From Clostridia bacterium (GTDB taxonomy: Bacteria > Bacillota > Clostridia > Christensenellales > Aristaeellaceae), in assembly GCA_017395685.1 (NCBI GenBank), contig JAFQOD010000032.1, positions 1 to 64,000 on the forward strand: a stretch of 64,000 bases of DNA, in the 5' to 3' direction. The notes under the pieces were generated by a model, which was not told where the DNA came from, did not search any database, and was given only the letters and a program-made list of their open reading frames with translations. This document shows, piece by piece, positions 2 to 5,404 of this stretch. The position numbers and the translations under genes were made by a program. Each line of letters begins with the position of its first letter. Position 1 is the stretch's first letter.

Positions 2-325
2 GAACAGCTCGACACCACCACAGCCACAGGGAAAATGATGCTGACCATGTTATCCGCTCTCAGCCAATTTGAACGGGATATCATCGCAGAACGCACCCTG
101 GACGGCCTGAAAGCCGCACGGGCAAGAGGACGGCAGGGAGGCCGCCCCAAAGCCGGGAGCGCCAAGGCCAAAGCGCAAGCCCTCGCCCTGTATGACGCAA
201 ACGCCATGACCAACCGGGAAATAGCGGAAACAGTGAAGGTATCCACCGCCACCCTCAGCCGATGGATAAGAGAAAGAAAAGATGCACAGCAAACTATGCA
301 TCAACAAGAAAGGCCGGAGGAATGA
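2..325 (+). CDS. Serine site-specific recombinase, C-terminal 107 residues (cut by window edge)
   Basis: The reading frame is open from base 2, so the N-terminal catalytic part lies before the window. What remains has the resolvase/invertase E-helix signature (LSALSQFERDIIAERT), then a basic Gly/Arg linker and a Hin-type helix-turn-helix (NREIAETVKVSTATLSRW). These proteins cut and rejoin DNA through a serine phosphodiester; this half provides dimerisation and DNA binding. The TGA stop lies inside the following terminator hairpin. Assignment to the resolvase/invertase family is secure. Whether it inverts, resolves or integrates cannot be told from this part. Confidence 0.9.
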   Translation, partial: EQLDTTTATGKMMLTMLSALSQFERDIIAERTLDGLKAARARGRQGGRPKAGSAKAKAQALALYDANAMTNREIAETVKVSTATLSRWIRERKDAQQTMHQQERPEE

Positions 326-1948: not shown

Positions 1949-2133
1949 TTGCCCTGTTTTACGTCTCATTGCCTCTACAATAGCGAAAAAACCTATGCCT
2001 GTCACATGAAAAGGTCATTTCTTTTTTCCTGAAAAATATTTTTCCAAATTATGAAATTTATTCCAAAAAATGTTCCCAATATAAGTGGAGTGCATGATGA
2101 ATGCGCTATCACATGGAAAGGAGAAACCAACAA

Positions 2134-2319
2134 ATGATTCTACTGGAAGAAAGAATATGCATCCGATGCAGAAAGGGCTATTCACCGAACGGCATGCGGC
2201 AAAAGTGTTGCCTCGCCTGCGGCGCTGTCATCCGGGATCAGCAATGCAAGAAGCGATATCAACGGCAAGGATGGATAATGCGGCAACCACATATGACAAA
2301 TAGAACCCGTCTTTCCTGA
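2134..2319 (+). CDS. Small zinc-ribbon protein (61 aa)
   Basis: The protein has two knuckles, CIRC and CLAC, separated by a basic stretch with an RQKC motif, followed by a basic helix. The same arrangement (CxxC, RQK-C, CxxC) occurs in the C-terminal half of the gene at 2422, so the two are related and probably bind zinc and nucleic acid. The start at 2134 was chosen over upstream ATGs because AAAGGAG lies just before it. Such short Cys proteins are frequent in integrative elements of Clostridia; their role is unknown. Confidence 0.6.
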   Translation: MILLEERICIRCRKGYSPNGMRQKCCLACGAVIRDQQCKKRYQRQGWIMRQPHMTNRTRLS

Positions 2320-2421
2320 TATCCCTTCCAAACCAACCGAAAAACAGGGAATAACTACGGAAAAGCCATAGCAAACCACCAGAATCACCCGAAGAAAACC
2401 GAAAAAATCGGAGGTATTACC

Positions 2422-2781
2422 ATGACGGATAAGCAAGTAAAAAGCAAGTGCAAATCATAGGCGGCAGCAGAATGCGCCAATTATCACGCCGGGGAATGCA
2501 TCCCCATGGACTGCCCATGCTTCGTTTTCGATCCAAAGGCATGGATATGCGCCTATTTTCAGAAAGCTGTATTGCCATTAAACCACCAACTAAAACAAGC
2601 AATTGAAGAACGGCACACGGAAACACCAGAAAATAAGCCGCATCAAAAACCATGTGCCCGATGCGGTCAGCGCTTCACCCCCTCCAGTAATCGGCAGAAA
2701 TATTGCCCATCTTGCAAGAGGGCGGCTGAACGCCAGCGAAACGCCGCAAGCCACCGGGCAAGATACCAGAACGGAAAATAA
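2422..2781 (+). CDS. Cys-rich VLP-type element protein with in-frame TAG at codon 13
   Basis: Translation should start at ATG 2422, 7 nt after a strong GGAGG. The frame reads 12 codons, meets TAG at 2458-2460, then stays open to TAA at 2781. Residues right after the TAG fit the Cys-rich VLP family found on Clostridia mobile elements (ECANYHAGEC, CPC, ICAYFQKAVLPL), followed by a C-terminal zinc ribbon (CARC, RQKYCPSC). The conserved region begins well before the next ATG (2506), which has no good ribosome binding site. Either UAG is decoded as an amino acid or this is a recent nonsense mutation. A zinc-binding accessory role is inferred only. Confidence 0.7.
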
Positions 2782-2917
2782 GGAGTATTTTCTCCCCCTT
2801 TAGAATGCTGGAAACCCTTATAAATCGAGGCTTCCAGAGGAGGCATTTCAAGGCGGTAAGGTGTTTCATCCTTTTCCCTGAAAACGGGCTTTCTAAACGG
2901 GGAGAAATAGACTATTT

Positions 2918-3724
2918 ATGGACAACATCAAAATCATATCAGAGATGGGCAGGGAGTGTTTTCCCTGCCTATATCATGAACTGAGTAAATACGGCGGCTC
3001 ACTTCTGAAAAAGCTCGTCACTCTGATTCAAACAGGGGAACAGAATCAGAATCGCGCCATCATTGAAAGGGGCAAAGCATGGTTCTTTATCAGCTTCTCA
3101 CGGCTTGCATCACAATTCGGGGGAAGTATGCAGACATGGTGCGAATCCCTGCACTACTGTGCCGCCCTGGGATTGATCCAAATACGGACAGTCACAAAGA
3201 AAACCCTTTCCCCTGCCATGAGAAAAAGCCTGAACCATATCACCGACGCCAAGCACAAAGCCGTCAATTATTATCATATCCCTCCCTACACCGTCACACT
3301 TCTGGATCAGGCAGAGCATAAAGCCCAGCAATTCAAGAAAAAGGGGATCAACCGTACAGGATTGACCAAAGGCGGCGTGATTGATGCAATCGGTCAGAAG
3401 CACGCAAACGCTATTTACATTGACGGCAGGACAAAAAGCAAGCTGGAACGAGAAACAGAAGCCACTATCATACGCATCATGCAAGAGGCCATCACAAAAC
3501 ACGGCTATACCCTGAAAGGCGAAATCCTGAACAAAACAGCAGGAGCGCTATACCGAAAGTATAAAATGCGCTGGAGGGAAATGCATCTGTACGTTAAGCG
3601 CATCTGGAAGAATCGAAGCAAGGCGTTATTATCAAAAGCCGGGGCAGTATACAAACGTCCCACGGCAGAACAGAAGCAAGCATTCAGCCTGCAAACGAAC
3701 GGCTGGATCATCACAAGGATATAA
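2918..3724 (+). CDS. Putative element replication or DNA-binding protein (268 aa)
   Basis: A soluble basic protein. Residues about 50-95 (SFSRLASQFGGSMQTWCESLHY) look like a winged-helix recognition segment used by plasmid and element replication initiators, and the C-terminal half is rich in Lys/Arg. It is followed by 147 bp of iteron-like direct repeats and palindromes and then the integrase, the layout of small replicating or integrating elements. GGGGAG precedes the ATG. No catalytic motif is evident; replication initiator is a guess from context, and a transcription regulator is possible. Confidence 0.5.
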   Translation: MDNIKIISEMGRECFPCLYHELSKYGGSLLKKLVTLIQTGEQNQNRAIIERGKAWFFISFSRLASQFGGSMQTWCESLHYCAALGLIQIRTVTKKTLSPAMRKSLNHITDAKHKAVNYYHIPPYTVTLLDQAEHKAQQFKKKGINRTGLTKGGVIDAIGQKHANAIYIDGRTKSKLERETEATIIRIMQEAITKHGYTLKGEILNKTAGALYRKYKMRWREMHLYVKRIWKNRSKALLSKAGAVYKRPTAEQKQAFSLQTNGWIITRI

Positions 3725-3753
3725 TTACTTTGTAATTATATCGTACTATCGTA

Positions 3754-3836
3754 TATCCTTACGGTTTTAATTCCTTGTGGATATGATTACGAAGTAATAC
3801 TACCGTACTACTTCGTAATACTATCCTTACGGTTTT
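3754..3836. repeat. Iteron-like direct repeats and palindrome upstream of the integrase
   Basis: A 15-bp direct repeat (TATCCTTACGGTTTT) starts at 3754 and 3822. Between the copies lies an 11-bp perfect inverted repeat, ATTACGAAGTA at 3786-3796 and TACTTCGTAAT at 3809-3819. A related palindrome (ATTACTTTGTAAT) overlaps the end of the preceding gene at 3724-3736. These could be replication iterons, integrase/excisionase arm sites or operators for the integrase. Confidence 0.6.
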
Positions 3837-3871
3837 TATTTCTCAGTAAAAATTATAAAGGAGCAGGAATA

Positions 3872-5128
3872 ATGATAAACCAAACCGAAAATCAATTCGT
3901 ATAGACCGCAAACCAGCTTCAAGCACTCATGACTCAGGCGGTTGAACAAGGCGTTGCAAAATATGCCGCGAACCTTGAAAGCTTCACAGAGCAGATGCCT
4001 TTCGTTTCTCAGAATGGAGGAAACGAAAACATGGCACGATTGAAAGCTCAAATCAACGGGAAATGGGTAACGAGCGATACTGCACAGCACCTTGTAGATA
4101 AGGCGTTGCAATCACAAACCCCTGAGAAAAGCGACCAGACGGTGAAAGACTATGCCGCACGCTATATGCGCCTGTATAAGGAAAACAGTTCCATTTCAAA
4201 TAACACTTTGACCGGATATCACGGATATCTAAAGAACCACATCTACCCCGCCATGGGGCATAAGGATATCTGCGAAATCACGGTTGATGTTATCCAAAGT
4301 TACATCAACGATAAGGCAACAGTATACACCCAGAAAACAATCAAGGAGCATATCACTTTAATGGCTGAAATCTTCGACGGCGCTATCGAAGACGGGCTTA
4401 TTGCAAAGAATCCCTTCAGAAGCAAACGCTTAAGGATTCTGGGCAAAGAAAGCCAAGAAACAAAGGCCTATACCGAAGAAGAATTCAAGCAACTCGAAGC
4501 CGACCTACTTCCTGACCTCACGGGAAGCGCCCAGCTTTACGCCGCCCTATGCCTTTACACAGGTATGAGACGCGGCGAAATATGCGCCTTACGCTGGGAA
4601 GATGTTGACCTTGAAAATGGGTTTTTGCACGTCAGGGAATCCATTGAATGGGCGGCAAAAAATCAAGGCGGAATAAAAGGGACAAAGAGCAATAACGGAA
4701 AGAGAGATATCGTTATTATCCCCCAGTTGGCCGCAATCCTTGAACGCCACCACAAAAAAAGTGGATACCTGATACAAGGGGCAAGAGCAAAAAAAGAGGC
4801 TCCTGCTACAAATCAAACTGTAATACGGCTTAATGAACGCATCGGAAACGAAGCCGCAAAGCATGGCATTGCGTTTTATCGGGGAAGCCTGAACAGAAAC
4901 AGCAGGGCAACCGTGGCAACCTTCATGAATAATGCAGCCCTTGATGAAAAGACCATTGAAAGCCAACTGGGGCACCATGACATACGCTTCACACGGCAGC
5001 GCTACATGAAAGCACAGGCCAAACAAGCAGAAAAAAGCATGGGCAAACTATCCGTCTATATGGCTCAAATCGATGCTTGCGGAACACGCACGGAACACCA
5101 AAAAGTCCCTCAAACCCTTATGGCATAA
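3872..5128 (+). CDS. Tyrosine recombinase/integrase with in-frame TAG at codon 11
   Basis: The start is ATG 3872, 9 nt after AAAGGAG. Ten codons are followed by TAG (3902-3904), then the frame is open for 407 codons to TAA. Domains in order: an N-terminal region, a basic AP2-like arm-binding segment (ARLKAQINGKWV), a SAM-like core-binding domain (VKDYAARYMRLYKE), and the catalytic domain with Arg I in YTGMRRGEICALRW, a box II Arg in NRNSRAT (the usual His of HxxR is not evident), LGHHDI and the nucleophile in RQRYMKA. The catalytic core looks intact, arguing against a decayed pseudogene. The next in-frame ATG (3929) lacks a ribosome binding site. It sits about 120 bp from the tRNA-Met 3' end, the likely attachment site. 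Confidence 0.8.
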
Positions 5129-5247: not shown

Positions 5248-5324
5248 TGGTAGCGGCGATCGGATTCGAACCAATGACACTCCGGGTATGAACCGAATGC
5301 TCTAGCCAACTGAGCTACGCCGCC
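5248..5324 (-). tRNA. tRNA-Met (CAT), elongator type
   Basis: A full cloverleaf on the minus strand: 7-bp acceptor stem beginning GGCGGCG, anticodon CAT, TTCGAAT T-loop and encoded CCA (5248-5250). The paired first position distinguishes it from the initiator next to it. The element's integrase lies just beyond its 3' end, so it is the probable integration target. Confidence 0.95.
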
Positions 5325-5327
5325 AAA

Positions 5328-5404
<77 letters not shown>

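Follow-up and report, generated by a model that had tools for sequence, protein, structure and literature searches.

We consider it slightly better than an even bet that UAG is read as leucine in the pool of phages and mobile elements of one bacterial clade, and that the two in-frame TAG codons of the small mobile element described here are leucine codons that borrow this code. The element lies at the beginning of the window, by which we mean the whole stretch of 64,000 nucleotides that was analyzed, and the bacterium carrying it is a probable gut bacterium. The stops in its two genes are likely to be hidden leucines rather than damage, because relatives have leucine at these positions, and a tRNA of phage-like contigs would read UAG as leucine.

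A Small Mobile Element with Two In-Frame TAG Codons

The element comprises a resolvase gene, a VLP gene, a replication-like gene and a tyrosine integrase gene, adjoining tRNAs (Table 1), and its 5' end is cut off by the contig edge. tRNA genes are usual insertion sites, and at two other loci (L156 and L157) related integrases likewise have a pair of tRNA-Met genes nearby. With its TAG entered as X, the VLP gene matched phrog_32573 at 2.7e-20, and the replication-like gene has a 38.6% identical homologue beside the integrase of a relative (L029). The nearest named records for related integrases are Clostridia MAGs. When viral contigs, phages and plasmids were searched with the element's integrase, only distant integrases were found, with none at 60% identity or above in two of these three sets. 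No ORF ended in TAG among six from the window and four from C36, a second contig of the same genome.

Two small proteins with secreted-type starts are encoded beside the resolvase, at 668-1860, and are possible cargo; neither had a Pfam match above the cut-off. The interval between the replication-like gene and the integrase (3712-3843) holds inverted and direct repeats, among them a 22-nt near-palindrome at 3779-3826 and the sequence TATCCTTACGGTTTT, which occurs twice, and might be an origin or an operator.

Table 1. Positions of the features of the mobile element within the window.
Feature	Position	Strand	Basis
Small serine recombinase (resolvase), 3' part; contig starts inside gene	2..325	+	PF00239, 8.3e-12 (translation of 2-322)
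Cys_rich_VLP / phrog_32573 gene, single in-frame TAG	2422..2781	+	PF14194, 2.4e-8, part after TAG
TAG, codon 13 of VLP gene	2458..2460	+	Leu column in alignment
Replication-like or unknown element gene, without TAG	2918..3724	+	phrog_25531, 1.3e-12, no known function
Shine-Dalgarno AAGGAG for leader start ATG 3872	3858..3863	+	Sequence
In-frame integrase leader (possible N-terminal extension), ~50 codons	3872..4030	+	Aligned with relatives' leaders; near-identical part in C36
TAG, codon 11 of integrase frame (ten codons before)	3902..3904	+	Sequence
Leader DNA motif copy GNACCTTGANA	3970..3989	+	Loose-pattern search
Shine-Dalgarno GGAGG for ATG 4031	4016..4020	+	Sequence
Tyrosine recombinase from conserved start, TAG-free	4031..5128	+	PF00589, PF14659
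Two tRNA-Met genes, likely insertion site	5248..5404	-	~120 nt past integrase

As a preliminary description of this DNA had stated, ATG 3872 has a strong ribosome binding site, and the integrase frame that it opens is interrupted by TAG at codon 11, after which 407 codons are open up to TAA 5128. The description was also right that a neighboring mobile gene has a single early TAG, since the VLP gene has one at codon 13, and that there is no other lesion, the VLP, replication-like and integrase genes showing neither a premature TAA or TGA nor a frameshift. The integrase is a tyrosine recombinase by its match to PF00589 (4.6e-16, 59.5 bits against a cut-off of 27.1). We take R-K-HxxR-H-Y to be the catalytic set of these enzymes, and name the motifs from it. 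By eye, all of its positions could be recognized (Arg I, Lys, Arg II, His III, Tyr) except the His of HxxR, so that the reported retention of active-site residues holds only in part; this His is Arg here and also in L038 and G019:C36, which are the closest relatives.

The VLP Gene TAG and a Leucine Column

The VLP gene makes a stronger case for UAG as leucine than the TAG in the integrase leader. A VLP profile in which both TAGs were masked took in 38 other loci (26 genome, 12 viral), and at the column of the window TAG, which 36 of them reach, 33 of these aligned sequences, not all of them independent, have Leu, the rest having M, Y and Q. The 33 Leu codons at this column are mostly CTG and never TTG, which is the sole Leu codon one step from TAG; on a path from CTG through TTG to TAG, each step would be silent if UAG encodes Leu. 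The VLP, replication-like and integrase genes of the window contain 110 codons that a single base change turns into TAG; TTG makes up just 8 of them, and chance nonsense changes would therefore seldom hit Leu. A second VLP TAG, in a genome of another genus of the same family (G059), falls in a column to which 37 other rows extend, 26 of them with Leu, or 25 of 36 when the window gene is counted once. Leucine is thus indicated as the amino acid at the VLP TAG site. VLP matches numbered 27, in 14 of 120 genomes, with TAG in two (the window's own genome, G000, and G059) and TGA in one (G053).

UAG in Phage-Like Contigs

Phage-like contigs that encode a tRNA-Leu with the anticodon CUA hold many in-frame TAGs, 88 in 33 hand-chosen genes; in one of them (G468), the terminase gene has eight and the portal gene six. 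When 15 orthologous phage gene sets were aligned with TAG read as X, 82 TAGs fell into 50 columns, 19 of which had no other residue. Leu made up 22 of the 33 residues aligned with phage TAGs, against a background of 8.2%, and was favored by 54 nats over Met, which came second. In NrdD the TAG column belongs to a conserved SCCR-X site, where solved sequences (4coi and 4u3e) have L, and an excisionase-like gene of G002 (phrog_66, 8.1e-6) reads EE-X-AKQ-X-NIS, where X is TAG at what are presumably Leu positions of such proteins. The helicase and desulfurase alignments had mixed TAG columns and added no support for Leu. Among the 88 TAGs, 31 lie within the first 60 codons where 16.7 were expected, the genes being hand-chosen and partly orthologous and so not independent. 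Taken together, these alignments indicate that UAG is Leu in the phage contigs.

The preliminary description had named a tRNA-Gln or a Pyl-like tRNA as a candidate reader of UAG. Code 15, with UAG as Gln, is the usual phage TAG recoding according to the excerpts consulted of PMC11210395, PMC10879173 and PMC7886860. Against such a reading, Gln appears in only 3 of the 33 aligned residues of the phage contigs, where Leu is ahead of it by 64.5 nats, and the CUA tRNAs are of Leu type. For pyrrolysine, the best PylS match in the window's own assembly scored 20.1 bits, far below the cut-off of 178.15. We regard glutamine or pyrrolysine as very improbable here, and both the alignments and the tRNA favor Leu.

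Suppressor tRNAs, Release Factor and Host Stop Codon Usage

A tRNA-Leu with the anticodon CUA was found in G002 (same genus as the window's genome), G087 (same family), G468 and G469. The first two carry it about 5.5 kb from an integrase adjoining a tRNA. In a pattern search of 150 relatives, whose hits were mostly sorted by eye before chosen ones were given to ARAGORN, at least 2 of the 150 genomes had a CUA tRNA; a tighter pattern matched two IMG/VR contigs and, in a set of 396 genomes sampled from the order, only G087. ARAGORN labels the tRNA as Pyl, by its anticodon. The body is class II, with a tRNA-Leu D-arm and, in those cases that show the end, A73; when other tRNAs were compared with the CUA tRNAs, all the best scorers were Leu types. 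At gathering scores, the four loci with CUA tRNAs matched no Rfam family apart from tRNA.

Two other frequent patterns were discarded. A class II tRNA with TTCTAGTGA, present in many relatives, resembles a CUA suppressor; ARAGORN identifies it as tRNA-Leu(CAG), with CTA in a stem. The other is tRNA-Arg(TCT).

No suppressor tRNA was found for the window element in its own genome assembly, which is 96% complete and in which none of the 43 tRNAs detected has CUA, and a search for a CUA tRNA in tRNA-Leu form with up to two mismatches found none in this genome or in G059. RF1 is present in the assembly. The preliminary description had named the lack of a CUA-reading tRNA together with an active, UAG-reading RF1 as evidence against a sense reading, and in this assembly RF1 is indeed present and a CUA tRNA was not found, but phage-like contigs of relatives do carry CUA tRNA-Leu.

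Of 37 long ORFs picked mechanically from the window's host part (5600-64000), 18 end in TAA, 19 in TGA and none in TAG; about 5 TAG ends would have been expected, as TAG makes up 454 of the 3,264 stop trinucleotides there. Over four stretches of the same genome, 1 of 57 long ORFs ends in TAG, and across the family 13 of 133 do (13 sets, this genome included). A tRNA that reads UAG could be tolerated by a host in which this codon is scarcely used. Host-wide recoding of UAG was considered and set aside, given that no CUA tRNA was found, RF1 is present, and TAG does end long ORFs elsewhere in the family.

The Integrase Start and Its Leader

The catalytic integrase is probably made from ATG 4031 in a normal cell and would not depend on TAG 3902, because ATG 4031 is preceded by GGAGG and its Met is conserved in relatives. 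This Met is invariant in all seven rows of the leader alignment A3, in which TAG rows were read as Leu, and an SD-like sequence precedes the corresponding start in many relatives (71 loci, some of them duplicates, surveyed with a script that preferred SD starts). The preliminary description had suggested that the early amber limits integrase synthesis, which is left unsupported because the catalytic body has this conserved start of its own, and it had named ATG 3929 as the alternative start, for which ATG 4031 is the better candidate.

It is possible, if on the unlikely side, that the leader is dispensable, positions 3872-4030 being a short upstream ORF or a 5' untranslated leader in which TAG merely ends a 10-codon peptide; the conserved start at 4031 and its SD fit such an arrangement. 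Many relatives, including the TAG-bearing G087, G592, G566, G535 and G074, also have a sigma-70-like promoter within the leader, and at five loci (L254, L267, L279, L260 and L293) good sites of the form TTGACA-17/18-TATACT or TATAAT lie inside the leader frame. In addition, a DNA motif of approximately GNACCTTGAyAACnnCAcA, defined by a loose pattern, precedes the integrase start in 64 of the 71 loci (L018, L249, L277 and L294 among them), mostly 43-72 nt upstream; 11 of these copies are out of frame, although the loci were chosen by a profile that favors in-frame copies. Because promoters lie inside the leader in many relatives, and the motif can be out of frame, part of the leader may be regulatory DNA or RNA, or a 5' UTR.

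Other features of the leader speak against dispensability. Leaders of relatives without TAG stay open (L038 and L039), and in these non-TAG leaders dN/dS was 0.42 and 0.46 between two groups and 0-0.24 within groups, all on the basis of few changes. The window's own leader lacks a promoter-like site, as do those of C36, G059 and G536, and none was found on the + strand of the window from 2000 to 4200. A dispensable leader would, moreover, leave the VLP TAG unexplained.

At the column of TAG 3902, the leader alignment has Leu in G059, L039 and L003, and Tyr in L038.

The types of stop found in leaders carry little weight. A leader search gave 66 matches in 308 genomes, with eight TAG, two TAA and no TGA, of which four of the TAG matches are rows of the query itself, so that the other rows give four TAG and two TAA; outside the query rows, stops within the leader proper come to three TAG and one TAA, which is too few. 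In two of those four TAG matches, the TAG is not in an integrase leader. That of G535 sits in the integrase body, aligned by eye with Lys, and that of G566 (L279, G566:C388) is in an excisionase-like gene that opens with a leader like that of the integrases, containing one TAG; the leader may be a module common to different genes. The SD-start survey of 71 loci cuts leaders at TAA or TGA by construction and is unusable for comparing stop types.

Sister Elements and the Question of Decay

The integrases of the window contig (C28) and of C36 are only 34% identical, yet 105 bp around the leader TAG are 90% identical between the two contigs, TAG included; that both have it is more than coincidence, but may go back to one recent exchange. 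C28 and C36 both begin in one and the same resolvase gene, whose two copies share 90% identity over 92 aa; what the element lacks at its 5' end may therefore be a repeat that was collapsed, and a tRNA is possibly hidden there.

In G059, two elements (C4 and C29) with different integrases have in common about 165 bp of leader with one TAG in it, and this TAG aligns with Val, an exception to the Leu pattern. The replication-like genes of both elements have TAG at codons 7 and 38, kept in both copies, which differ by a dS of 0.09 and a dN of 0.033 over 171 codons (dN/dS about 0.37); the protein had no match among plasmids. The C4 gene is shortened by a premature TAA relative to the C29 copy. With one more TAG in its VLP gene, the C4 element has four TAGs across three genes.

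Ordinary decay, in which the stops would be nonsense mutations in a dying element and the leader TAG would have been copied between two elements by recombination, draws on several of these observations, namely the leader identity of C28 and C36, which fits recent exchange, the TAA in the C4 replication gene, the TGA in the VLP gene of G053, and an own assembly with RF1 and no suppressor tRNA found. Related integrases, too, contain stops of all kinds with no TAG bias overall, at least seven rows with TAG, at least nine with TAA and at least seven with TGA among the matches listed. We nonetheless find decay unlikely. The three window genes showed no TAA, TGA or frameshift, both window TAGs fall on Leu positions, and the TAGs of the G059 replication genes were kept in both copies at the dN/dS given above. 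The preliminary judgment that two such TAGs are unlike random decay is upheld by the VLP Leu column, the recurrence of TAGs in relatives and the CUA tRNAs in phage-like contigs of the genus and family.

A Model for Decoding of UAG

In the model that we favor, a pool of phages and small integrative elements in this family of bacteria would have UAG decoded as leucine by a phage-borne tRNA-Leu(CUA). The window element would belong to that pool, with Leu codons at the TAGs of its VLP gene and integrase leader, which would be readable only when a phage, perhaps one resident in the cell or one entering it, provides tRNA-Leu(CUA) in trans. Reading of the element's TAGs, and the part of the phage tRNA in it, are inferred; more tentatively, a cell lacking the tRNA would terminate the leader after 10 codons and make the short integrase from ATG 4031, and a cell containing it would make the extended integrase and the VLP protein.

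More speculatively, the leader TAG might be a regulatory gate separating the short from the long integrase, by which the element senses phage. The TAG-free integrase body and the early position of the TAGs in their genes are points for a gate; that the leader is possibly untranslated, and that tRNA-Leu(CUA) was not found in this assembly, are points against it. The leader TAG could also be harmless, since the integrase body is provided with a separate start. Rather doubtful, in our estimate, is a code-dependent parasitism in which the catalytic integrase is kept in the host code, the UAG-as-Leu codons of leader and accessory genes open only once a phage using this code comes in with its tRNA-Leu(CUA), and the amber serves to sense the helper phage.

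If UAG is leucine in these elements, one genetic code would be common to several mobile elements in a cell, and annotation with the normal code would miscall such elements as broken. The function of early in-frame stops becomes directly testable.

Comparison with Known Systems

Phage recoding is described as TAG for Gln or TGA for Trp in the excerpts consulted of PMC11210395 and PMC7886860, and in our search of the literature on phage recoding we recognized no description of UAG as Leu in phages. The TAG-recoded gut phages (code 15; crAss-like and Lak) are like the phage contigs here in combining many in-frame TAGs in conserved phage genes with a phage-borne CUA suppressor tRNA. The contigs here are set apart by Leu as the indicated amino acid and by a tRNA-Leu of class II; further differences are that the named host relatives are Clostridia MAGs, and that TAGs occur in replication and nucleotide genes besides terminase and portal. 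As in recoded phages, TAGs are spread over multiple genes in the phage contigs; the window element has them in two of three core genes, one each. Suppressor tRNAs of their own are carried by G002, G087, G468 and G469 but were not found for the window element.

Suppressor tRNAs of theta-ribozyme phages are similar in being phage tRNA-Sup with a UAG anticodon, and in the portion of PMC10879173 consulted their isotypes are given as Gln, Trp, Ile and Tyr for 180 tRNAs, with Leu absent. The tRNA loci described here, by contrast, are without Rfam families beyond tRNA at gathering scores, and the isotype is Leu. UAG is a sense codon in ciliates, where it has been reassigned, and in green algal mitochondria, where it encodes Leu (NCBI table 16). 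Those codes belong to whole genomes or organelles, whereas the one proposed here would be phage-borne, with a mobile element making use of it in trans.

Phage satellites and small integrative elements resemble the window element, which is small and tRNA-adjacent and has a resolvase, a VLP gene, a replication-like gene and an integrase; the difference here would be a possible dependence on a tRNA. UAG as Leu, with a matching tRNA, is indicated in the phage contigs of one family; UAG also stands at Leu positions in small elements, for which such a tRNA was looked for without success. UAG read as Leu by tRNA-Leu(CUA) in phage contigs would be new relative to the phage recodings described, and the satellite-like elements are possibly a new twist on them.
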